This document shows, one piece after another, positions 14,005 to 58,695 of a DNA stretch of 64,000 nt. Origin of the DNA: Burkholderia sp. GAS332 (GTDB lineage: Bacteria; Pseudomonadota; Gammaproteobacteria; Burkholderiales; Burkholderiaceae); contig FSRV01000001.1 of NCBI GenBank assembly GCA_900142905.1, positions 62,001-126,000 on the forward strand, given 5' to 3'. The translations under genes were made by a program, and so were the position numbers. Within the stretch, counting starts at the first letter, position 1. Every line of letters starts with the position of its first letter. Below the pieces are notes generated by a model, which made no database searches, was not told the origin of the DNA, and saw only the letters and a program-made list of their open reading frames with translations.

Positions 14005-14202
14005 AGAAGTGCGCTTCGGCGCGCGCAGCGCCGCCGGAAGTATGACTGCCTTGTCACTTGCGCTGAATGTGCGGGAACACAGATTCCAGATGCACCACTA
14101 CCGTGGCTGTGCGGGGGACCCGCTTAGCAGGGGGTTCGAGCCGCTTTCTCTTGCTTACTTCTCTTTGCGGCGGCAAAGAGAAGTAAGTGCCGCCCCGCAC
14201 AG
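14005..14202 (+). repeat. Dispersed repeat, copy A, left part
   Basis: First of five copies of one repeat in this window (A 14.0, B 24.2, C 24.9, D 54.3, E 56.6 kb). Order in the family: a GC-rich start (TGCGCTTCGGCGCGCGCAGC), a block ending CAGATGCACCACTACCG, GACCCGCTTAGCAGGGGGTT, the hairpin CTTACTTCTCTTTGC/GCAAAGAGAAGTAAG, then a C/A-rich tail. This copy is interrupted after the hairpin by an IS4-family element, and the last ten bases (CCCCGCACAG) are its target duplication. Between the lipoprotein stop (13769) and here there is about 235 bases with no recognisable feature. Confidence 0.85.
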
Positions 14203-15571
14203 CAATGCTCTCAACTTAAGCCCCATTTCATCAAGCAAGCTTGTACGCGAGATGGTGATGGGGCTTGGCTTTTCTGGGCGGTCGTGGGTAAGAGCGCGAG
14301 GGCTGGATACGACATCGGGCCTGGTGGATGGCCGGCATGACTTTGGGCAGCAGGTTCAGGCAGTGTTCAATCCGTAGCAGGCACGCGCCGAGGATCGGCT
14401 TGAGGGCACCCAGCGCATAAACACGGTCAGGACGGCTGGCAGGTGCGTCATCGTGAGACGCATCGTCGAGATCGCTGAGCAGTGTGCACAGGTTGTCGGC
14501 GACGGTTTTTGCGCCGAAGTCCTGCTGCAGCGCCAGGTAGTCCAGCCCCGTGACGGCCTCCAGCCGCAGCCGGTGCTTGAGCCGTTTGAACGCTTCCTCG
14601 ATGCGCCAGCGCTGATGGTAGAGCGCCCCGAAGGTGGCAGCCGGATAGCGCTGGCGATCGAGCAGCGAGGTCATCAGCACGCGAACACGTCCGCCAGGAG
14701 TGACATCGCGGATCAGGCGCACCGTGGTGGGCGTGCGCACCAGTTCATAGTCAAGGGCGTCCTGTTCATCGGGCGCGGCCAGTGTCACGAAGCGCTCAGC
14801 CTCGCCACTGCGCGCAAAGGCGGTGACGCACGTCCAGGCGCGTGCATCCACGCGTAGACAGAACGGGATCTCGCGCTGTGCCAGGGCGGCTACCATCATG
14901 TTGCCGAGATAGCCGCGATCGAGCAGCAGCAGATCGGTGTGCGGTTGCAGTACGTCCAGCGCTTCGAACAGCATCTGCCGCTCGGAGCCGTCGGCCGGAT
15001 GAAGCGCGGCGTGCAGGGTCAGTTCGGGCCCCGGCAGGAACAGCGCAAATGCGTAGTGGTCGGCGCGCAGATCATGGCCTTCGCGCGTGCCTACCCGCAG
15101 ACGGCTACCGTCGGCTGCGACCAGCCTCAGGCCATTCCAGCGCATCGAATCAATGTAGGGTTGGGCCAGCTCGATCAGGCGCGCGCGGGCCAGTTCGAAC
15201 AGCTCGGCCGACAGGCCGCGGCGCGCCTTGCTGAAGGCCTGTGCACTTACCGCCCGGGTGCGCACCGTTTGCCCGTGCAACGCGCCAAACAGCCCATCGA
15301 GCTCGGCCTGCACGCTCGAGCGCATGCCCGACATCATCAACGCTGCCATGCGTGGCAGCGTCAGGATGCGATTGCGGGTAAAGGCAGTGGGAGAACGGCG
15401 AACACGCTCAGCGAGCGCCGGATCGAACAGGAAATCGGAGAACTCAGCCAGGAGTTGGGAAGACGCTGGTATTTGAGTTCATATCGTTTATTTATCAATC
15501 AGTTATGCGATGAAGTTTACAGGGCAAACGCCCCGTATACAAGCCCTTTCGGGCTTAAGTTGAGAGCATTG
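14203..15571. mobile_element. IS4-family insertion sequence, 1,369 bp
   Basis: Ends are perfect 21-bp inverted repeats (14203-14223 and 15551-15571) beginning CAATGCTCTCAAC. The element is flanked by an exact 10-bp direct repeat CCCCGCACAG (14193-14202 and 15572-15581), a target duplication in the size range of IS4 elements. It carries one leftward transposase gene. The intact duplication and ends imply a fairly recent insertion into repeat copy A. Specific IS name not assigned. Confidence 0.93.
14231..15349 (-). CDS. IS4-family transposase
   Basis: 372 residues from the ATG at 15349. Catalytic residues are visible: first Asp in VAADGSRLR, second in LLLDRGYLG, and the YREK signature of IS4 transposases, YHQRWRIEEAFKRLK (Y-x2-R-x3-E-x6-K). 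Family-like sequence continues upstream of this ATG in the same frame (FLFDPALAERVRRSPTAF) to a stop just before 15473, yet that stretch has no ATG, GTG or TTG. Either a rarer start is used or the 5' end is frameshifted: an ATG at about 15481 opens the neighbouring frame for only 12 codons. Activity is therefore uncertain. Confidence 0.88.
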   Translation of the reverse strand: MAALMMSGMRSSVQAELDGLFGALHGQTVRTRAVSAQAFSKARRGLSAELFELARARLIELAQPYIDSMRWNGLRLVAADGSRLRVGTREGHDLRADHYAFALFLPGPELTLHAALHPADGSERQMLFEALDVLQPHTDLLLLDRGYLGNMMVAALAQREIPFCLRVDARAWTCVTAFARSGEAERFVTLAAPDEQDALDYELVRTPTTVRLIRDVTPGGRVRVLMTSLLDRQRYPAATFGALYHQRWRIEEAFKRLKHRLRLEAVTGLDYLALQQDFGAKTVADNLCTLLSDLDDASHDDAPASRPDRVYALGALKPILGACLLRIEHCLNLLPKVMPAIHQARCRIQPSRSYPRPPRKAKPHHHLAYKLA

Positions 15572-15660
15572 CCCCGCACAGGGGCAACGCTAATAGACCG
15601 ATAAGAAAACAAGGAAAGGCCAACGCCGCAGGCACCCAGCCAACCAAGCGCCGCGCAGGC
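15572..15660 (+). repeat. Dispersed repeat, copy A, right part
   Basis: Continues copy A after the IS4 element: CCCCGCACAGGGGCAACGCT, then the family tail CTAATAGACCGATAAG, GGAAAGGCCAACGCCGCAGG and CGCCGCGCAGGC. It ends about ten bases from the stop of the efflux-pump gene, whose last several hundred bases show the skewed codon use found beside every copy. Confidence 0.85.
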
Positions 15661-23176: not shown

Positions 23177-24484
23177 TCATAGTTGGTCTTGTATCCGCAC
23201 GATACGCGTAGTGTGAGTCAATGCGTCACGATAGACGAGGGTCGTGCGGTCCACTACCGCGCGTTCGTGCTGCACGCGGCCGCGGATGAAAAAGTAGCTC
23301 GTGTTGACGTCCATTTCATTCGGATCGATCTGGGCGGACTGTACGCCGGCGCCGCTCAAGGCGAGTTGCACATCGCTGACGTTATGGAAAAACACGGTCT
23401 GCCGGCGCGCGACGAAGGCTTGCGCGGCGGACAGACTCATTCCTGGCACGATTGCCGCGATGACTTCGGCGGGGGCTGTATTCATGTTGACCGCCGATAC
23501 CGTGGGCAGCACGGTGACGAACGGGCGCAAGCGCGCGACCATTTCCGGCGTATAGCCGGGGATATCGAGCAGCGAATCGACGCTGGTCATTTGCAGCGGC
23601 GCGACGGCAGCGTTGTCGTCGCCGTCTTCGATGCCGGGTTTGTCGGTGAAGCTACCGCCGGTGGCGCCGCCGCCTGGGGCGATCGGGGTTGCCGTTGTCC
23701 CGGCGGCGGAAGTGACCGTCTGAAAACGCGTTGCCGATTGAGCGAGGCTCGAGCGGACCTGCACGGCGGTGGTTTTTGCCAGTTGGCTGTTCACGCCGAG
23801 GGAGACCAGCAGGCGCTGGTAGGCATCGACCTGCTCCGCGTTGAGTTGCATGACGCCGGGGGCGGGGCTCGAGACCAGATTGCGGAGGTTGAATTTGGCT
23901 TGGGCGTCTTCGATTGAGCCGGAGAGATAGGTCTCTTGGCCTTGTTCGGCTCTGACTTCACCGATTTGGCCTAGGAAGTCCGACAGACGTGTTTTTGCAA
24001 TGGGGACGCCCCATACCCCGCCTAAGTAGGTGATGCCTGCTGAGGTGTCGCCCTCTGAGCGGAGGATCAGGCGCGTCCAGTCCAGCGCGCCTCGGGCGAC
24101 CCATTGCGCTTGAGAGAGGAGACGTTGGTTTTCTATCCTTCGGATTTGGACTTGCTGGCGCCAGAGGAGGCCCGATACCAGGATCGCTGATAGCGCGACT
24201 ACTAGTAGAGCGCTGATGATGGCTACGCCTTGTTGTTTTGCCTGCGGCAGCTCTCCTGCCTGTGTGCCTGCGGCGTTGGCCTTTCCTTGTTTTCTTATTG
24301 GTTTATTAGCGTTCCCCCTGTGCGGGGGGGCACCTACTTTTCTTTGCCGGCCGCAAAGAAAAGTAGGCAAAAGAAAGCGGCTCCAACCGCTAATTCTTAA
24401 GTGGGTCCCCTGGCTTGGAGGGGGTAGTGGTGCATCTGGAATCTGTGCCCCCACATCCCCAACCCGGAGTGACAAAGCAGTCAT
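23177..24484 (-). CDS. gspK: Type II secretion minor pseudopilin K, 5' end replaced by a repeat
   Basis: Gene-like sequence begins at codon AAA (24238): KQQG|VAIISALLVVALSAILV is the prepilin cleavage site and membrane helix. As usual for GspK there is no Glu at +5. The rest (about 350 residues) is normal, with DVNTSYFFIRGRV near the C-terminus. Upstream of 24238 the frame runs straight into dispersed repeat B and the native start codon is absent. Possible in-frame starts inside the repeat are TTG at 24370 and ATG at 24484, giving leaders of roughly 45-85 residues; the coordinates here use the ATG. Whether GspK is still made and processed is open. Confidence 0.75.
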   Translation of the reverse strand: MTALSLRVGDVGAQIPDAPLPPPSQGTHLRISGWSRFLLPTFLCGRQRKVGAPPHRGNANKPIRKQGKANAAGTQAGELPQAKQQGVAIISALLVVALSAILVSGLLWRQQVQIRRIENQRLLSQAQWVARGALDWTRLILRSEGDTSAGITYLGGVWGVPIAKTRLSDFLGQIGEVRAEQGQETYLSGSIEDAQAKFNLRNLVSSPAPGVMQLNAEQVDAYQRLLVSLGVNSQLAKTTAVQVRSSLAQSATRFQTVTSAAGTTATPIAPGGGATGGSFTDKPGIEDGDDNAAVAPLQMTSVDSLLDIPGYTPEMVARLRPFVTVLPTVSAVNMNTAPAEVIAAIVPGMSLSAAQAFVARRQTVFFHNVSDVQLALSGAGVQSAQIDPNEMDVNTSYFFIRGRVQHERAVVDRTTLVYRDALTHTTRIVRIQDQL

Positions 24485-24525
24485 ACTTCCCGCCTCGCGC
24501 TGCGCGCTCGCCGGAAGGGTCGGCT
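24236..24525 (-). repeat. Dispersed repeat, copy B
   Basis: Inverted relative to copies A, C and E. The C/A-rich tail end abuts gspK at 24236. The hairpin CCTACTTTTCTTTGC/GCAAAGAAAAGTAGG spans about 24332-24366. The other end, at about 24.5 kb, carries the CAGATGCACCACTACC and GTGACAAAGCAGTCAT blocks. Forms a head-to-head pair with copy C around a 39-bp minisatellite. Confidence 0.85.
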
Positions 24526-24715
24526 TTGAACACCATTGGATTCGTTTGAGGTGGAGGGGAGCCGTCGGCTTCGCCTCGGCGATGCGCCCAACCAATTTTT
24601 CTGCTGTTGCCTGTGCGTGAGGACTAGTGCGTACGGCCGAAAGGCGCGTCGCGTCGGAAGAGCCGAATGATGAGAGCGGCGGCGCCGATGAAAGCAGCTG
24701 CGCGTCTGCGCGTGC

Positions 24716-24832
24716 AAAGGTAGCGCCCGCCGGAACGCAGAGGCCAGAAGCACCAAAAGCGGCGCTCACCGGAGCACAGGCATGAGATGCACCAAAGGCG
24801 GCGCCCGCCAAGGCGTAGGGGCCAAGAGCTCC
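24716..24832. repeat. 39-bp tandem repeat (three units) between copies B and C
   Basis: Units start at 24716, 24755 and 24794, each exactly 39 bases, beginning AAAGGYAGCGCCCGCC or close variants, with weaker partial units on both sides. Since 39 is a multiple of three, every frame stays open and would encode a 13-residue repeat rich in Ala and Gly, but I see no reason to think it is translated. Confidence 0.8.
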
Positions 24833-24864
24833 GGCCAGTGCGCAGCCGTCAGAACCATCAAGCG

Positions 24865-25125
24865 GTTTTTGTGATGTACCGCTCGGCGCGCGCAGCGCCG
24901 CCGGAACCGATGACTGCTTTGTCACTGACGCGGAATGTGCGAAGGCACGGATTCCAGATGCACCACTGCCCCCTCCGAGCCAGGGGACCCACTTAGCAGG
25001 GGGTTCGAGCCGCTTTCTTTTGCCTACTTTTCTTTGCGGCGGCAAAGAAAAGTAGGTGCCGCCCCGCACAGGGGCAACGCTAATAGACCGATAAGAAATC
25101 AAGGAAAGGCCAACGCCATAGGCAA
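24865..25125 (+). repeat. Dispersed repeat, copy C
   Basis: Intact copy, same orientation as A and E. Starts near TGATGTACCGCTCGGCG, then CAGATGCACCACTGCC, the hairpin CCTACTTTTCTTTGC/GCAAAGAAAAGTAGG (about 25022-25055), CTAATAGACCGATAAG and the C/A-rich tail, which fades out about 130 bases before the gspJ stop. The stretch 25126-25259 holds a short imperfect repeat (CAGAGCGTCGCG twice) and no gene. Confidence 0.85.
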
Positions 25126-25259
25126 ACGGACAAAACCGCCGAGCAGGCAAAGAACCAAAGAAAAAGCACGCCCACCCACGCCCAACCACAGAGCGTCGCG
25201 AAGACAACAACAACACCAAAGACCCAGAGCGTCGCGGAGACAAAAGAAAATACTTCATT

Positions 25260-52740: not shown

Positions 52741-54279
52741 ATGAGCGAGACATATCAGGACGAGGCCGTCCGGAACGAGACGAGCGCACGCGCGCTGACG
52801 CATTTCATTAACGGCAAGACGATCGAAGGCACGAGCGGCCGTTTCGGTGACGTCTTCAATCCTGCGCTTGGCAGCGTGAGCGCACGCGTGCCGCTGGCGA
52901 GCGTCGCTGAAGTGGACGCGGCGGTCGCCGCTGCCAATGCTGCGTTTCCTGCGTGGAGCGAGACCGCGCCGATCAAGCGGGCGCGCGTGCTGTTCAAGTT
53001 CAAGGAATTGCTCGACCGTCACCATGACGAACTGGCGGAGTTGATTACACGTGAGCACGGCAAGGTGTTTTCGGATGCGAAGGGCGAGGTGATGCGCGGC
53101 ATCGAGATCGTCGAGTTCGCGTGCGGCATTCCGAATCTGCTGAAGACCGACTTCACTGACCAGATCGGCGGTGGCATTGACAACTGGAATTTGCGTCAGC
53201 CGCTGGGTGTGGTGGCTGGCATTACGCCGTTTAATTTCCCGATGATGGTGCCGTGCTGGATGTTCCCGGTGGCGATCGCATGCGGCAACACGTTCGTGCT
53301 GAAGCCGTCAGAGCGGGATCCGTCCACCGCGAATCGATTGGCTGAGCTGCTGAAAGAAGCCGGATTGCCGGATGGCGTGTTCAACGTTGTGCATGGCGAC
53401 AAGGTGGCGGTGGATGCGTTGCTCGTACATCCCGAGGTGAGTGCGTTGTCGTTTGTTGGTTCGACGCCGATTGCCGAGTACATCTATACGGAAGGCACGA
53501 AGCACGGCAAGCGCGTGCAGGCTTTGGGCGGTGCGAAGAATCACCTCGTGGTGATGCCGGATGCGGATCTCGATCAGGCTGTCGATGCGTTGATTGGTGC
53601 TGCCTACGGTTCCGCTGGCGAGCGGTGTATGGCGATTTCGGTGGCGGTTGCGGTGGGGCATATTGCAGATGAATTGATTGAGCGACTGACGCCGCGGGTG
53701 AAGAGCCTGAAGATTTTGAATGGCATGGAATCGGAAGCCGAGATGGGGCCGTTGGTGACGGCGGCGCATCGCGAGAAAGTGACGGGTTACATTGATGCCG
53801 GCATTGCGGCGGGTGCGAAGCTGGTTGTCGATGGGCGTGGCCATCAGGTGGCCGGGCATGAGAAGGGGTTCTTTCTCGGTGGCACGTTGTTCGACGATGT
53901 CTCGACCGATATGAAGATTTATCGTGAGGAGATTTTTGGTCCGGTGCTGTGTGTTGTGAGGGTGCCGGATTTTGCTTCTGCTGTTGAACTGATTAACGCT
54001 AACGAGTTTGCTAATGGGGTCGCGTTGTTTACCTCCGATGGCGGGGTGGCTCGGGCTTTTTCGCGGCAGATCCAGATTGGGATGGTGGGGATTAATGTGC
54101 CGATTCCTGTGCCGATGGCTTGGCATTCTTTTGGTGGGTGGAAGAGGTCTCTCTTCGGGGATCATCATGCCTACGGCGAAGAGGGGGTTCGGTTTTATAC
54201 GCGGTATAAGAGCATCATGCAGAGGTGGCCCGATAGCATCGGGAAGGGGGCTGAGTTCACTATGCCTGTGGCGAAATAG
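52741..54279 (+). CDS. mmsA: Methylmalonate-semialdehyde dehydrogenase (CoA-acylating)
   Basis: 512 residues, aldehyde-dehydrogenase superfamily. Catalytic Cys in [17 protein letters not shown] (about residue 300), NAD-binding region [18 protein letters not shown], and the MmsA C-terminus [20 protein letters not shown]. Oxidises methylmalonate semialdehyde to propionyl-CoA in valine, thymine or inositol breakdown. The last ~900 bases change from C/G-ending to T/G-ending codons, increasingly toward the stop, which lies about a dozen bases from repeat copy D. The protein itself looks intact. Confidence 0.93.
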
Positions 54280-54291
54280 GTTTTTGGTTTT

Positions 54292-54472
54292 TTGCCTGCG
54301 AGGCGCTTAGTGTCTGTGCTTTTTGGGTTTTGGCGTTTTCTTGAGGTGTTTGGATGGTCAGGGCTTGTTCGGGTGTTTGCCTATGGCGTTGGCCTTTCCT
54401 TGATTTGTTATTGGTCTATTAGCGTTGCCCCTGTGCGGGGCGGCACTTACTTTCTTTGCCGCCGCCCCTCCA
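54292..54472 (-). repeat. Dispersed repeat, copy D, left part
   Basis: Inverted orientation. The tail end (TTGCCTGCGAGGCGCTTAG) starts right after the mmsA stop, then GGCGTTGGCCTTTCCTTG, TTATTGGTCTATTAGCG, and the first arm of the hairpin CTTACTTTCTTTGCCGCCGC. Interrupted there by an IS3-family element; continues at 56117. Confidence 0.8.
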
Positions 54473-54540
54473 TGTCAGGCTAGTTGTCGCCTCACCCGAA
54501 CCGAATGATGTAAAGATGGGGGGCGGACAGCGAATGGAAG

Positions 54541-55041
54541 ATGAAACGCTATTCAGCGGAAACCCGGGAATGGGCAATCAAACAGATGATGCCGCCGTTC
54601 AATCGTGCGGTAATTGAGTTGTCAGGCGCGACGGGCATCACGACAGTGACGCTACGCAGCTGGCGGCAAAGCGCAAGACAGGCAGGGGAATTCATGCCGG
54701 GCAATGGCAAAACGGGCGATCGATGGTCAAGCGCCGACAAGTTCAGGGCGGTGCTGGAGACGGCGCCGCTCAGCGAGATTGAGACTTCACAGTACTGCCG
54801 TAGCAAGGGCATTTATCCTGAGCAGATCCGGCAGTGGCGCGAGGCATGCGAGCAGGCCAACGGCGCGCCTGAGCCGAAGCTGACGGCGGCGCAGCGCAAT
54901 GAAGCGAAGGCTGCCCAAAAACGCATCCGGGAGCTGGAGCGCCAGCTCAAGCGCGCGGATGCTGCACGTGCGGAGGCGGCGGCGTTGCTGAATCTGCGAA
55001 AAAAAGCCGACGCGATCTGGGGCAAGGAAGAGGAAGACTGA
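54541..55041 (+). CDS. IS3-family transposase OrfA
   Basis: 166 residues, DNA-binding helix-turn-helix part (TGITTVTLRSWRQSAR and a second HTH QYCRSKGIYPEQIRQWREAC) with a leucine-zipper-like C-terminus (RIRELERQLKRADAARAE). Near its 3' end a run of seven A (CGAAAAAAAGCC, about 55005) allows a -1 shift into the frame that leads to OrfB. Confidence 0.88.
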   Translation: MKRYSAETREWAIKQMMPPFNRAVIELSGATGITTVTLRSWRQSARQAGEFMPGNGKTGDRWSSADKFRAVLETAPLSEIETSQYCRSKGIYPEQIRQWREACEQANGAPEPKLTAAQRNEAKAAQKRIRELERQLKRADAARAEAAALLNLRKKADAIWGKEEED

Positions 55042-55067
55042 TCAGCAGCCCGGATCGCGATGAAGCC

Positions 55068-56090
55068 ATGCAGTTGATCAATGAAGCGGTGCAGCAGGGG
55101 GCATGCCGTGCGCGTGCGTGCGAGCAACTTGGGGTGAACGTGCGCACGGTGCAGCGCTGGCGCCAGTCACCCCATGACGGGCGCACGCAAACCCTCCGTG
55201 AAGCGCCCCCCAACAAACTGAGTGAGGCGGAGCGTCAGGCCGTGCTTGAAGCGGCCAACCGGCCCGCATTCGCGAGCCTGACGCCGCACCAGATCGTGCC
55301 GAAACTGGCCGACGAAGGGGTTTATCTGGCCAGCGAATCGACGTTCTACCGGATCCTGAAAGCGGCGGGACAGGGCCAGCGCCGCGGTCGTGCGAAGGCG
55401 CCGCAACGACGCCCACTCACGACGCATCGCGCCACTGGTCCGAACCAGGTGTGGTGCTGGGATATTACGTGGATGCCGAGCACGGTCCGGGGCCGGTACT
55501 TTTACTGGTACATGATGAAGGACATCTACAGCCGCAAGCTGGTGATGAACGAGGTGTGGGAGCAGGAGTCGGCTGAGCACGCGAGCGAGCTGCTGCACAA
55601 GGGATGTTTGCGCGAAGGCATCGCCGGGCGTCCGCTGGTGCTGCACTCGGATAACGGCAGTGCGATGAAAGGCGCCACGATGCGCGCGGCCATGATCGAT
55701 CTGGGCGTAGAGCCTTCGTTCAGCCGGCCGCGCGTGAGCAACGACAACGCCTTCGCCGAGGCGCTGTTCCGTACGGCGAAGTACTGTCCGTTATGGCCCG
55801 AGCAGCCGTTCGACACGCTGGAGGAGGCCCGCGCATGGGTACAGCGCTTTGTGCAGTGGTACAACGAGGAGCACTGTCACAGCGGCCTGAAGCATGTCAG
55901 TCCGGGACAACGGCACCGCGGCGAAGCCGGCGACCTTCTGGCCCGCCGGCGTGCGTTGTACGAAGACGCACGCATGCGGAACCCCGCGCGCTGGTCAGGC
56001 GCCATTCGCAACTGGCACCTGGCAGACGTGGTCTATCTGAACCCGGAGCGAACTCACGCGTCGGTCGACATGTATAAGCACGCAGCGTAA
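55068..56090 (+). CDS. IS3-family transposase OrfB (integrase-fold catalytic subunit)
   Basis: 340 residues. DDE residues: Asp in VWCWDITWMP, Asp in LVLHSDNGSAMKG, Glu in NDNAFAEALFRT, plus the usual Lys/Arg downstream. In the -1 frame relative to OrfA, and open upstream through the A7 run, so an OrfAB fusion by frameshifting is likely the active transposase. Appears intact. Confidence 0.92.
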   Translation: MQLINEAVQQGACRARACEQLGVNVRTVQRWRQSPHDGRTQTLREAPPNKLSEAERQAVLEAANRPAFASLTPHQIVPKLADEGVYLASESTFYRILKAAGQGQRRGRAKAPQRRPLTTHRATGPNQVWCWDITWMPSTVRGRYFYWYMMKDIYSRKLVMNEVWEQESAEHASELLHKGCLREGIAGRPLVLHSDNGSAMKGATMRAAMIDLGVEPSFSRPRVSNDNAFAEALFRTAKYCPLWPEQPFDTLEEARAWVQRFVQWYNEEHCHSGLKHVSPGQRHRGEAGDLLARRRALYEDARMRNPARWSGAIRNWHLADVVYLNPERTHASVDMYKHAA

Positions 56091-56116
56091 CGGTTCACGC
56101 GACAACTACCTTGACA

Positions 56117-56290
56117 CACACCGCCGCAAAGAAAGATAAGCAAAGAAAGCGGCTCGACCCCCCTGCTAAGCGGGTCTCCCGCACAGTCGCGGTAGTGGTG
56201 CATCTGGAATCCGTGCCCTCGCGCATTTGACGTTAGTGACAAAGGGCTCATCAGCTCCCACTCCGCACTGCGTGCGTCGCGGATGGGTTT
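56117..56290 (-). repeat. Dispersed repeat, copy D, right part
   Basis: Continues copy D after the IS3 element: second hairpin arm GCAAAGAAAGATAAG, then GCTAAGCGGGTCTCCCGCAC, GGTGCATCTGGAATCCGTGC and GTGACAAAGGGCTCAT. Beyond 56290, CATCGGCTTTGCCTCGGCGA has a counterpart beside copy B (CGTCGGCTTCGCCTCGGCGA), so the family extends into the spacer. Confidence 0.8.
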
Positions 56291-56366
56291 GCCAGGGAAA
56301 CCAGGGGCTTCGGTTGGGGGCGGTAGGGGCCATCGGCTTTGCCTCGGCGAGACGCTTGATTGGTTG

Positions 56367-56610
56367 GTGGCGAGTTGTACCAGCAGATGCGATTGACGGC
56401 GCGCAAGTGTGAATATGGGGTGCTGGGTGAAGTGGTTGGCTGGCGGCAAATGTGAGCAGGAGAGGGTGCCGAGTTAAGCAGTCGACTGGAAGCAAAGGTG
56501 AGTAGATGAGATCATGGAATGAGGCGGTTGGCAGCGGAAAGATGTGAGCGAGAGAGGGTGCTGAGCGAAGTGGTCGACAGCCAGCGTATGTGAACGGAGT
56601 GGGTGCAAGT
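56367..56610. repeat. 46-bp tandem repeat (about five units) between copies D and E
   Basis: Units start at 56418, 56464, 56510, 56556 and 56601 (spacings 46, 46, 46, 45), mostly beginning GGGTGCTGAG or close variants, with a weaker unit upstream from about 56367. No gene is apparent. Confidence 0.8.
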
Positions 56611-56621
56611 GAACCGATGTT

Positions 56622-56965
56622 TTTATGATGTACGCTTCGGCGCGCGTAGCGTCGCCGGAAGTATGACGCCCTTGTCACTCACGCCGAATGTGCGAGGGCA
56701 CGGATTCCAGATGCACCACTACCGTGGCTGTGCGGGGGACCCGCTTAGCAGGGGCTTCTAGCCGCTTTCTTTGCTTATCTTTCTTTGCGGCGGCAAAGAA
56801 AGTAAGTGTGCCCCGCACAGGGGCAACACTAATAGACCGATAAGAAAGCAAGGAAAGGCCAACGCCGCAAGCATACAGACAAAAAAGCGCCCGCACGCAG
56901 ACAAATCAAGGAAAGGCCAACGCCGCAGGCGCACAATCAAAAAGCGCCGCGCAGGCAAAAAAGCT
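56622..56965 (+). repeat. Dispersed repeat, copy E
   Basis: Same orientation as A and C: TGATGTACGCTTCGGCGCGC, CAGATGCACCACTACCG, GACCCGCTTAGCAGGGGC, hairpin CTTATCTTTCTTTGC/GCAAAGAAAGTAAG, CTAATAGACCGATAAG, then the tail. The tail is duplicated in tandem (58-bp units at 56849 and 56907). It ends about 15 bases before the GMC oxidoreductase ATG, so the ribosome site of that gene (AGGAGAC) is practically attached to the repeat. Confidence 0.85.
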
Positions 56966-56979
56966 TAGGAGACGAAACC

Positions 56980-58695
56980 ATGAGCATCACCGAAAAAACA
57001 CCACTGACGCCCCGCCGCCTGGAAGGCGAATTCGACTACATCATAGTAGGCGCCGGCACAGCAGGTTGCGTGCTAGCCAACCGCCTATCGGAAGACCCAG
57101 AAATCCAGGTCCTGCTACTAGAAGCCGGCGGCAAAGACGACTACCACTGGATCCACGTGCCGGTAGGCTACCTCTACTGCATCGGCAACCCCCGCACGGA
57201 CTGGCTCTACAAAACCCAATCAGAACCCGGCCTGAACGGCCGCTCCCTCTCATATCCCCGCGGACGCGTACTAGGCGGCAGCTCATCCATCAACGGCATG
57301 ATCTACATGCGCGGCCAGCGCGAAGACTACGATGAATGGGCCCGCGTCACCAATGACGCCTCCTGGTCCTGGAACGCCGTCCTCCCCATCTTCAAACGCA
57401 GCGAAGATCACCACGCGGGCGCGTCCGAATCGCATGGAGCAGGCGGCCCATGGCGCGTCGAAAAACAACGCCTGAAATGGAAGATCCTCGAAGAGTTTTC
57501 AAAAGCCGCACAACAAGCCGGCATACCCGCCACCGACGACTTCAATCGCGGCGATAACACCGGCGTCGGCTACTTCGACGTCAATCAGAAACGCGGTATC
57601 CGTTGGAATGCGTCGAAAGCCTTCTTGCGTCCAGCGCTCAAGCGCCCGAATCTTACCGTCATCACCGGTGCGCACACGCAGCGCGTCGTGTTCGAAGGAC
57701 GCCGCTGCACCGGCGTCGAATATCGCGGCGACAACACCGACTATCTCGCCAAAGCCCGTTGCGAAGTGATCCTCAGTTCGGGTGCAGTCAACTCGCCGCA
57801 ATTGCTCGAACTCTCGGGTATCGGCAATGGCGCGCGCCTGCAGAATCTCGGCATCGAGGTCATCAAGGATCTGCGCGGCGTCGGCGAAAATTTGCAGGAC
57901 CATCTGCAATTGCGCATGGCCTATAAGGTCGACGGCGTGCGCACACTCAATACAGCCTCCGCCCATTGGTGGGGCAAGCTGATGATCGGCATGCAGTACG
58001 CGCTCTTTCAAAGCGGTCCGATGTCGATGTCGCCGTCGCAACTCGGCGCGTTCGCGAAGTCCGATCCGGATGATCGCTCACTCACACGCCCCGATCTCGA
58101 GTATCACGTGCAGCCGCTCTCGCTCGATCGCTTCGGTGAACCGCTGCATCGCTTCAACGCGTTTACCGCGTCGGTGTGTCAGTTGCGGCCGACTTCGCGC
58201 GGCAGTATTCACATCGGATCGGCCGACGCTTCGGCGCCACCGTTGATCGCGCCGAACTATCTGTCCACCGATTACGACCGGCACGTCGCGGCCAACGCTT
58301 TACGTCTCACGCGCCGCATTGCCGCGGCACCCGCGCTCGCGCCCTATCGGCCGCAAGAGATTCTGCCCGGCATCCAGTACCAGACCGAAGAAGAACTTCA
58401 GCAGGCCGCGGGCGCGGTCGGCACCACCATCTTTCATCCGGTCGGTACCTGCCGTATGGGCACCCCCGATGATCCCGGCGCGGTAGTCGACAACCGGCTA
58501 CGAGTTATCGGTGTTGACGGCTTGCGTGTGGTCGATGCATCAATCATGCCGTCCATCACCTCGGGTAACACCAACTCACCGACGCTGATGATCGCCGAAC
58601 GCGCCAGCGATATGATCCGTGAAGACCGCCGCGCGCGCGTGACCGACAGCGTGCGGGTCCAGACGAGCGCTGCGTCGTCCATGTCCGCTGTGTGA
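56980..58695 (+). CDS. GMC-family oxidoreductase (choline dehydrogenase-like)
   Basis: 571 residues, FAD enzyme. Dinucleotide motif DYIIVGAGTAGCVLANRLSE, GMC signature 1 GRVLGGSSSINGMIYMRG (about 105), signature 2 SSGAVNSPQLLELSGIG (about 265), catalytic His in FHPVGTCRMG and the C-terminal Asn of SGNTNSPTLMIAER. Oxidises an alcohol; substrate unknown. ATG 56980 with AGGAGAC upstream. The first ~500 bases use many A-ending codons (CTA, GTA, TCA), then use becomes normal, as expected beside a repeat end. Confidence 0.9.
   Translation: MSITEKTPLTPRRLEGEFDYIIVGAGTAGCVLANRLSEDPEIQVLLLEAGGKDDYHWIHVPVGYLYCIGNPRTDWLYKTQSEPGLNGRSLSYPRGRVLGGSSSINGMIYMRGQREDYDEWARVTNDASWSWNAVLPIFKRSEDHHAGASESHGAGGPWRVEKQRLKWKILEEFSKAAQQAGIPATDDFNRGDNTGVGYFDVNQKRGIRWNASKAFLRPALKRPNLTVITGAHTQRVVFEGRRCTGVEYRGDNTDYLAKARCEVILSSGAVNSPQLLELSGIGNGARLQNLGIEVIKDLRGVGENLQDHLQLRMAYKVDGVRTLNTASAHWWGKLMIGMQYALFQSGPMSMSPSQLGAFAKSDPDDRSLTRPDLEYHVQPLSLDRFGEPLHRFNAFTASVCQLRPTSRGSIHIGSADASAPPLIAPNYLSTDYDRHVAANALRLTRRIAAAPALAPYRPQEILPGIQYQTEEELQQAAGAVGTTIFHPVGTCRMGTPDDPGAVVDNRLRVIGVDGLRVVDASIMPSITSGNTNSPTLMIAERASDMIREDRRARVTDSVRVQTSAASSMSAV

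Follow-up and report, generated by a model that had tools for sequence, protein, structure and literature searches.

The 64,000-nucleotide stretch of Burkholderia sp. GAS332 analysed here (the window; C1:62001-126000 of a 10.4-Mb genome with three contigs) contains copies of a non-coding repeat that occurs at ~60 places in the genome, one of them between mmsA and a GMC oxidoreductase gene. Beside this repeat the DNA carries a strand-specific mutational footprint, visible as an excess of A and C on the strand that runs 5' to 3' outward from the repeat, and this footprint is real and genome-wide. It follows the orientation of the repeat's half-units, is on average one-sided, has an asymmetric substitution spectrum and depends on the presence of the element. 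A preliminary description of the window had noticed altered codon endings in the two genes and ascribed them to a single process, i.e., C-to-T change on the strand running toward the repeat through repeated single-strand exposure and cytosine deamination.

The repeat is built from oriented half-units of ~200-280 bp that mostly form outward-facing inverted pairs, and each half-unit contains an inner arm, a palindrome of ~34 nt, a GC hairpin, the conserved core GGGGCAACGCTAATAGACC, and a tail. With at most three mismatches the core occurs 119 times in the genome, compared with 0 for the reversed pattern. The analysis covered 1.2 Mb of the genome, holding 109 of its 116 cores with at most two mismatches, and these comprised 45 outward-facing pairs as well as tandem and solo cores. 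One of 110 ends was dropped for having more than two mismatches, and the remaining 109 were reduced to 105 where the flank was too short; genes were called with a simple codon-score model built for this purpose. The inner arm adjoined the core at 81 of the 109 ends, was displaced as if split by an insertion at 25, and lacked a landmark at 3. Conservation was 98% in the core, partly by construction because the ends were found through the core as search seed, and 91% in the stretch immediately outside it. The core was present in 28 of 45 congeners and in 0 of 32 genomes from other families of the order. Below, G000 denotes the GAS332 genome itself, G017 and G019 two close relatives (G019 with 10% contamination by a tool's estimate), and g42 and g44 other genera.

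On the outward strand, A+C minus G+T was +0.409 at 0-50 bp from the core, +0.285 at 200-300 bp, +0.221 at 400-600 bp, +0.100 at 800-1000 bp, +0.020 at 1.5-2 kb and +0.019 at 2-2.5 kb, with none beyond 2.5 kb (106 ends in the first bin, 105 thereafter, 95 in the last). The skew is at full strength immediately past the core and decays with an exponential scale of ~555 bp; the footprint covers roughly 1-1.5 kb. The null distribution was taken from 22,956 windows lying over 3.5 kb from any core (mean -0.001, sd 0.066; limits 0.108 at 95% and 0.156 at 99%). Of the 105 ends, 98% lay above its 95% limit and 93% above its 99% limit, and the lowest value at any end was -0.028. At fourfold-degenerate sites the frequencies of A, C, G and T were 0.078, 0.422, 0.423 and 0.077 at 6-8 kb and 0.202, 0.589, 0.177 and 0.031 at 200-400 bp, and fourfold skew was positive at all 64 testable ends, i.e., the 64 of 105 with at least 40 fourfold sites within 600 bp. 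Repeat-flanking genes elsewhere in the genome therefore share the polarity seen in the window, a comparison that the preliminary description had itself named as one that could refute it. Its statement that the changes are mostly synonymous holds as well, with the qualification that codon positions 1 and 2 are also shifted near the repeat. Two further congeners gave the same sign at 7 of 7 ends at 100-600 bp (0.07-0.30; five stretches).

Within the window, the single polarity previously described for all five outer repeat ends was recovered, with outward values at 100-600 bp of +0.28, +0.14, +0.33, +0.31 and +0.22; the weakest, at core 24300 (0.14), lies over the 95% null limit and under the 99% limit. 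The two repeats earlier called D and E proved to be halves of one element, whose parts and surroundings are listed here together with the other units of the window.

54413..54431, minus strand: core of the left half-unit (repeat D), pointing left
54343..54456, minus strand: outer part of the left half-unit, matching Rfam RF02421 (Bp1_684) at 46.8 bits, over the gathering score of 44
54473..56116, plus strand: insertion sequence (~1.6 kb) in the palindrome region of the left half-unit, with open reading frames 54541-55041 (HTH_Tnp_1) and 55068-56090 (rve); outer limits placed by eye from the terminal inverted repeats
56117..56282, minus strand: inner arm of the left half-unit, past the insertion sequence; 56121-56251 is 90% complementary to 56663-56793
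56627..56902, plus strand: right half-unit (repeat E), with inner arm, ~34-nt palindrome (56774-56807), GC hairpin (by eye), core and tail
56796-56902: RF02421 match in the right half-unit, 39.1 bits, under the gathering score of 44
56820..56838, plus strand: core of the right half-unit, pointing right
56849..56925, plus strand: tail 19-mer CAAGGAAAGGCCAACGCCG, repeated once more in direct orientation 58 bp farther out
53300..54412, plus strand: left skewed flank including the 3' end of mmsA, with G+T excess on the plus strand; inner limit approximate
52741..54279, plus strand: mmsA (aldehyde dehydrogenase family, PF00171), 3' end shifted
56839..58000, plus strand: right skewed flank including the 5' end of the GMC gene, with A+C excess on the plus strand; outer limit approximate
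56980..58695, plus strand: GMC oxidoreductase (PF00732, PF05199), 5' third shifted
24239..25142, unstranded: full element B/C, cores 24300 (minus) and 25071 (plus), both flanks skewed (0.14 and 0.33)
14006..15652, plus strand: solo half-unit A, core 15581 (plus), split by an insertion sequence at 14231-15349 (DDE_Tnp_1)

Both codon shifts beside element D/E were upheld. The A/C-ending codons at the 5' end of the GMC gene are evident within the gene, as fourfold sites in codons 1-200 number A22 C69 G14 T1 against A16 C106 G74 T25 in later codons (chi-square p 8e-8). For the G/T-ending codons at the 3' end of mmsA, the within-gene contrast (A3 C34 G85 T36 in codons 213-512, A8 C31 G56 T16 in codons 1-212) reaches only p 0.04 because the G+T excess starts early in the gene; the shift is clear when compared with orthologues. 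For each gene, orthologues were compared at the 30 best loci of the search, own genome included. In GMC, the element lies upstream in 9 of 30 orthologues, and these nine take the top ranks of skew in codons 1-200 (0.37-0.72), compared with -0.05 to 0.37 in the 21 without the element. In mmsA, the seven carriers among 30 fill the top seven ranks (0.43-0.59), and the 23 others range from 0.00 to 0.29 with a mean of 0.13, counting that of G008, of which 46 codons were read, as lacking the repeat. As the preliminary description had expected of a repeat-dependent process, skew is thus weak or absent in most orthologues without the repeat. In a tree of the later part of GMC (30 rows) the nine carriers fall into three separate clades, so that the element label requires three changes, at least two of them forced by well-supported branches, and the association between element and skew is not that of a single clade. 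These comparisons rule out the insertion of the repeat into sites that were already skewed. In G029, where outer remnants only were found (by eye) and which was scored as lacking the element, skew is intermediate (0.34 in GMC, 0.25 in mmsA), as if fading. At the corresponding loci (L095, L282), the element between mmsA and GMC appears to have lost its interior through a natural deletion that spared both outer tails.

The direction of the footprint was resolved at solo half-units, defined as having no opposite arm within 4 kb and no other core within 6.5 kb (n=13, including unit A, whose right flank is skewed at +0.28 and left flank is not, at +0.01). Mean skew was 0.282 on the outward side and 0.022 on the inner side, and the outward value was larger at 13 of 13 (Wilcoxon p 0.00024). 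This one-sidedness implies that polarity is set by the oriented half-unit and not by the pair, and exposure on both sides of a repeat was not supported, as the inner sides of solo units are on average unskewed. It also bears on a decidedly improbable alternative, namely, SbcCD-type double-strand breaks at the palindromes of paired elements followed by resection in both directions. The long inverted arms would suit such breaks, as would the fold of the right half-unit of D/E, which is more stable than its shuffles (z -2.75; 3 of 200 shuffles equally stable), and flanking mutagenesis is caused by inverted repeats in yeast (Saini 2013) and strand-asymmetric mutation accompanies human meiotic breaks (Hinch 2023, PMC7615360), as far as these sources were covered. 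The symmetric break model in its plain form is nevertheless ruled out by the solo half-units, of whose inner sides 2 of 13 exceeded the null limit, and paired-element interiors show no centred skew, though homogenised arms could mask it.

Neither the direction of transcription nor that of replication accounts for the polarity. The fourfold shift (200-400 bp versus 6-8 kb) was +0.56 beside genes reading away from the unit and +0.60 beside genes reading toward it, ruling out gene orientation as the cause. Transcripts that converge and terminate at the unit, exposing the non-template (inward) strand, would yield the right sign and balance, since the rise of A/C-giving changes and the fall of their mirror images match the pattern of transcribed strands; yet with an equal shift beside away-reading genes the transcripts needed there would be antisense, which makes this explanation very improbable. 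Flanks replicated before and after the unit were alike (0.271 +- 0.009, n=51, versus 0.261 +- 0.012, n=54; replichore borders drawn by eye), which rules out an effect of fork direction. Fork stalling with exposure of the lagging strand next to the unit is for the same reason hardly credible, even though the G+T excess on the unit-directed strand resembles a leading-strand skew. Ordinary replication asymmetry in this genome, at only ~1.2-fold (C>T 0.0532 versus G>A 0.0442 in the leading frame), also speaks against it.

The substitution spectrum was obtained by polarising changes at synonymous third positions against G017 and G019, with 34 of 39 ends mapped in both. Among the G000 ends mapped to stretches of these relatives, a core was found at the matching place in 56 of 60 and 52 of 60; these stretches had been chosen around the relatives' own cores, so that the counts do not represent the fraction of elements shared, and the remaining G000 ends were unmapped. 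Rates within 600 bp of the core were divided by those at 2.5-5 kb on the outward strand, with bootstrap 95% intervals. Intervals excluding 1 were obtained for the transitions G>A (1.96 [1.46-2.45]), C>T (0.44 [0.35-0.54]) and A>G (0.64 [0.45-0.88]), and for the transversions C>A (3.58 [2.43-5.33]), A>C (3.31 [2.24-4.76]) and G>C (2.19 [1.55-3.03]). The other ratios were T>C 1.23, C>G 0.75, G>T 0.74, T>G 0.47, A>T 1.38 and T>A 1.36. Farther out, at 600-1600 bp, four types had intervals excluding 1, namely, G>A (1.36), C>T (0.71), G>T (0.44) and C>G (0.72). In 108 pairwise alignments covering 74 ends, fourfold A<>C differences were up 2.73-fold [2.37-3.13] and G<>T differences down to 0.69 [0.46-0.94], giving a ratio of ratios of 3.98 [2.92-6.16]. 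Fourfold divergence was moderately raised, at 0.21-0.24 compared with 0.185, which indicates that the partition between strands is altered more than the total rate. Gains (82) and losses (83) of A/C were in balance at 300-600 bp. As a side observation, changes at most 2 bp apart in the same lineage were somewhat commoner near the unit.

The contrast between A<>C and G<>T decides between mutation and selection. An A/C-rich, unstructured outward strand or transcript might be favoured by selection, e.g., for Rho loading on transcripts that leave the unit or for a G/T-rich inward strand with which RecA pairs well, and the transitions do resemble a fixation bias (G>A 1.96, C>T 0.44). Selection for A/C would, however, alter neither A<>C nor G<>T, as it should be indifferent to exchanges inside either class; the data therefore require a mutation process that is asymmetric, and pure selection for A/C is ruled out. 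Such selection would also have to act through the codons of ~100 gene ends in both reading directions, and it leaves the depletion of T, which Rho does not require, to be accounted for, so that this explanation retains little probability. The earlier judgement that codon selection explains the pattern poorly is borne out by this contrast and by the irrelevance of gene orientation. The proposed single C-to-T process on the inward strand fared less well: outward G>A is raised as it predicts, while outward T falls and C rises, and A<>C and G>C are in excess. Cytosine deamination alone is thereby rejected, as the increases in A<>C and G>C match or surpass that in inward C>T and outward C>T lies under background. 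A narrow deaminase context is likewise ruled out, with inward C>T up in all four 5' contexts (1.38 after A, 1.41 after C, 1.22 after G and 2.02 after T, i.e., 1.2- to 2.0-fold), and the dominant C>T in a fixed 5' context that would mark a kataegis-like cytosine-deaminase target was not found. What stands of the proposed single-strand exposure is an outward-extending, strand-asymmetric mutation process, whose spectrum deamination alone misses and whose C>T context dependence is weak. The asymmetry itself is observed; that the excess changes arose on the inward strand we infer from their chemistry.

The best explanation of these observations, held with evenly balanced confidence, is that nicking or one-sided end processing occurs under the direction of the half-unit and that the outward strand is then copied anew from the inward one. 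Most simply, the outward strand would be nicked in or close to the core, and the 5' end exposed in this way, or by one-sided end processing, could be degraded or displaced outward. The outward strand would then be rebuilt with the inward strand, running 5' to 3' toward the core, as template. Damaged bases of the inward strand, such as deaminated C and oxidised G, would be fixed together with its copying errors, and the damage and errors of the outward strand would be erased. Over evolutionary time, the outward strand would gain A/C in any adjoining gene, mostly at synonymous sites. Nick, resynthesis and lesions alike are deduced from the footprint. Put more strongly, and tentatively, the repeats may be oriented cis-acting rewriting stations, at which one strand is cut or nicked in a large share of generations and the next kilobase resynthesised; if so, neighbouring genes would in effect be renewed from a single strand, acquiring a mutation spectrum of their own and a lasting directional change in their codons.

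Repeated strand processing at the unit is compatible with two features of the repeats themselves. Extra direct copies of the tail were found on the outward side at 44 of 105 ends; the same 44 windows contained a single reverse copy, and the control windows, placed at 2-2.6 kb, contained one copy altogether. In addition, in two genomes out of three the ends appear to have been homogenised, in keeping with strand exchange at the units: similarity was 0.871 within G019 and 0.853 within G017 (26 ends), and orthologous ends of G000 and G019 (0.803, 51 pairs) were barely more alike than any two ends between those genomes (0.800). Some bases are fixed by lineage: at one position, for example, A was found in 91% of ends in G000 and 100% in G017, and G in 91% in G019.

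Several results weigh against strand replacement directed by the half-unit. Its main difficulty is the depression of outward C>T to 0.44, for which strand replacement would have to be frequent; this is hard to square with rare events. The mirror-image pattern is firm for some substitution types only, the intervals of T>C, C>G, G>T, T>G, A>T and T>A within 600 bp including 1, and at 0-300 bp the polarised fourfold flux runs the other way, with 24 changes from G/T to A/C (K>M) against 52 from A/C to G/T (M>K); this imbalance may be a polarisation bias or a sign of a weakening process. Two inner sides of solo units exceeded the null limit, with 0.21 at C2:664214 and 0.13 at C1:1390633, and in GMC the ranges of orthologues with and without the repeat touch, as G043 (without) and G003 (with) tie at 0.37. 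Ends within G000 were only 0.792 alike, not more than between genomes (0.800), so that homogenisation is not demonstrated in G000. In g42, skew was weak and short (10 ends averaging 0.101 at 300-600 bp, none farther), and one of five elements had almost no skew past 100 bp. In g44, the 13 best RF02421 loci lacked outward skew at 100-500 bp (mean 0.008), and the one locus read among the RF02421 loci of g44, L221, was without an inner arm by eye. Finally, no nuclease or nickase was found; all 46 genomes searched in the genus have at least one Y1_Tnp match, with or without the repeat.

The closest rival to one-sided nicking and resynthesis is a Chi-like control of resection, in which breaks arising anywhere on the inner side would be taken up by a RecBCD-type enzyme. 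Travelling outward, the enzyme would be switched at the half-unit and, for the following kilobase, would leave the inward strand single-stranded with a 3' end. Chi, with RecBCD, is an oriented octamer with a one-sided effect 5' on the Chi-bearing strand that fades with distance, and the same oriented one-sided action is found here at solo half-units, the outward side being the larger at 13 of 13. The inward strand would be the exposed one, in line with the spectrum, and fork and gene orientation would be irrelevant, as observed. Known Chi sites are, however, short and very numerous, compared with a unit of ~200 bp at ~60 places, breaks at random positions should occur too seldom to depress outward C>T, and we know of no Chi site for the genus and of no permanent base-composition footprint at Chi sites; this explanation is accordingly considered unlikely. 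Nick-directed mismatch repair that always takes the outward strand as the new one was also considered; MutH gave 0 matches in G000 and, among 14 control genomes, was found in E. coli only.

Among known repeats, the closest in architecture are REPINs with their RAYTs, which likewise are non-coding palindromic units occurring as inverted doublets and singlets with lineage-specific variants (Bertels and Rainey 2011); inverted doublets were found here as 45 paired elements among 109 ends, with cores facing outward. REPs measure ~20-40 bp (PMC3733652, as far as covered), and the conserved unit of the present repeat is far longer, at ~200 bp or more. The abstract of Bertels and Rainey (2011) mentions no flanking mutational footprint. 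A RAYT, searched for as PF01797 only, was neither linked to the repeat by presence nor situated beside any unit among the cores listed: G000 has one weak over-cut-off Y1_Tnp match (C1:440211, 28.7 bits), with no core within 100 kb among the 100 of 119 cores listed, and Y1_Tnp matches in congeners with and without the repeat rule out a RAYT confined to carriers. To our knowledge, REPINs leave no mutational footprint in their flanks.

Nearer in effect are DNA breaks and their repair. At human meiotic breaks, strand asymmetry extends through the flanking 2 kb and involves several substitution types beyond deamination, as outlined by Hinch (2023, PMC7615360), on both sides of the breaks at PRDM9 sites; the footprint described here is one-sided, bacterial and strong enough to alter base composition. 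Inverted repeats in yeast are reported to raise mutation up to 8 kb away on both sides (Saini 2013). Mutagenic break repair in E. coli, which also acts via repair synthesis, requires oxidised guanine, which would suit an inward excess of G>T and T>G, but it is stress-induced at breaks, and its abstract refers to no repeat family or strand-asymmetric footprint (Moore 2017, PMC5542668). No description of such a footprint was found in titles and abstract openings of top-ranking papers, a search with subscription papers mostly outside its scope, and the literature on Burkholderia repeats and on Cand684 gave no lead. Since none of the systems compared involves an oriented repeat that acts on one side and remodels the genes next to it, the phenomenon is rated as a new kind, yet known repair enzymes are expected to carry it out.

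Base composition and codon usage are usually ascribed to selection, replication strand or GC bias, and here a repeat imposes directional mutation on any gene that adjoins it, at ~60 places in a single genome. If confirmed, this would offer a natural assay for strand-specific DNA damage and repair in bacteria, would caution against interpreting codon shifts beside repeats as selection, and would point to an enzyme or process that acts on an oriented DNA unit.

The outer part of both halves of D/E is covered by the RF02421 covariance-model match in outward orientation, and all 23 candidates scored in the own genome match RF02421 at E <= 0.001. Bp1_684 (RF02421) was predicted with SIPHT as a Burkholderia small RNA candidate; here it is one module, the outer one, of a multicopy inverted element, and the Rfam search of the element gave nothing useful beyond it. 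L221, the best RF02421 locus of g44, is flanked by two lipoamide-enzyme genes (by eye, aceF and lpdA), and a similar locus in G000 (L238) has lpdA and aceF on either side by eye, no visible inner arm, and a skew of 0.12. One full element in g44, orthologous in 12 genomes, has a weaker skew of the same sign (0.106 at 300-600 bp; 24 ends that represent one locus and are not independent).

Further observations concern the structure of the repeat. Copies of the tail 19-mer are mostly 56-59 bp apart (12 cases inspected). Core variants are characteristic of genomes, e.g., GGGGCGACG in G019, GGGGGAAAG in G029 and GCTAGCAGACC in G001, despite many orthologous sites in G000 and G019. Two G019 contigs (L134, L135) carry near-duplicate flanks around the element, which may reflect duplication or contamination. 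Lastly, the palindrome regions of half-units host two different types of insertion sequence, HTH_Tnp_1 with rve at 54473-56116 and DDE_Tnp_1 at 14231-15349.

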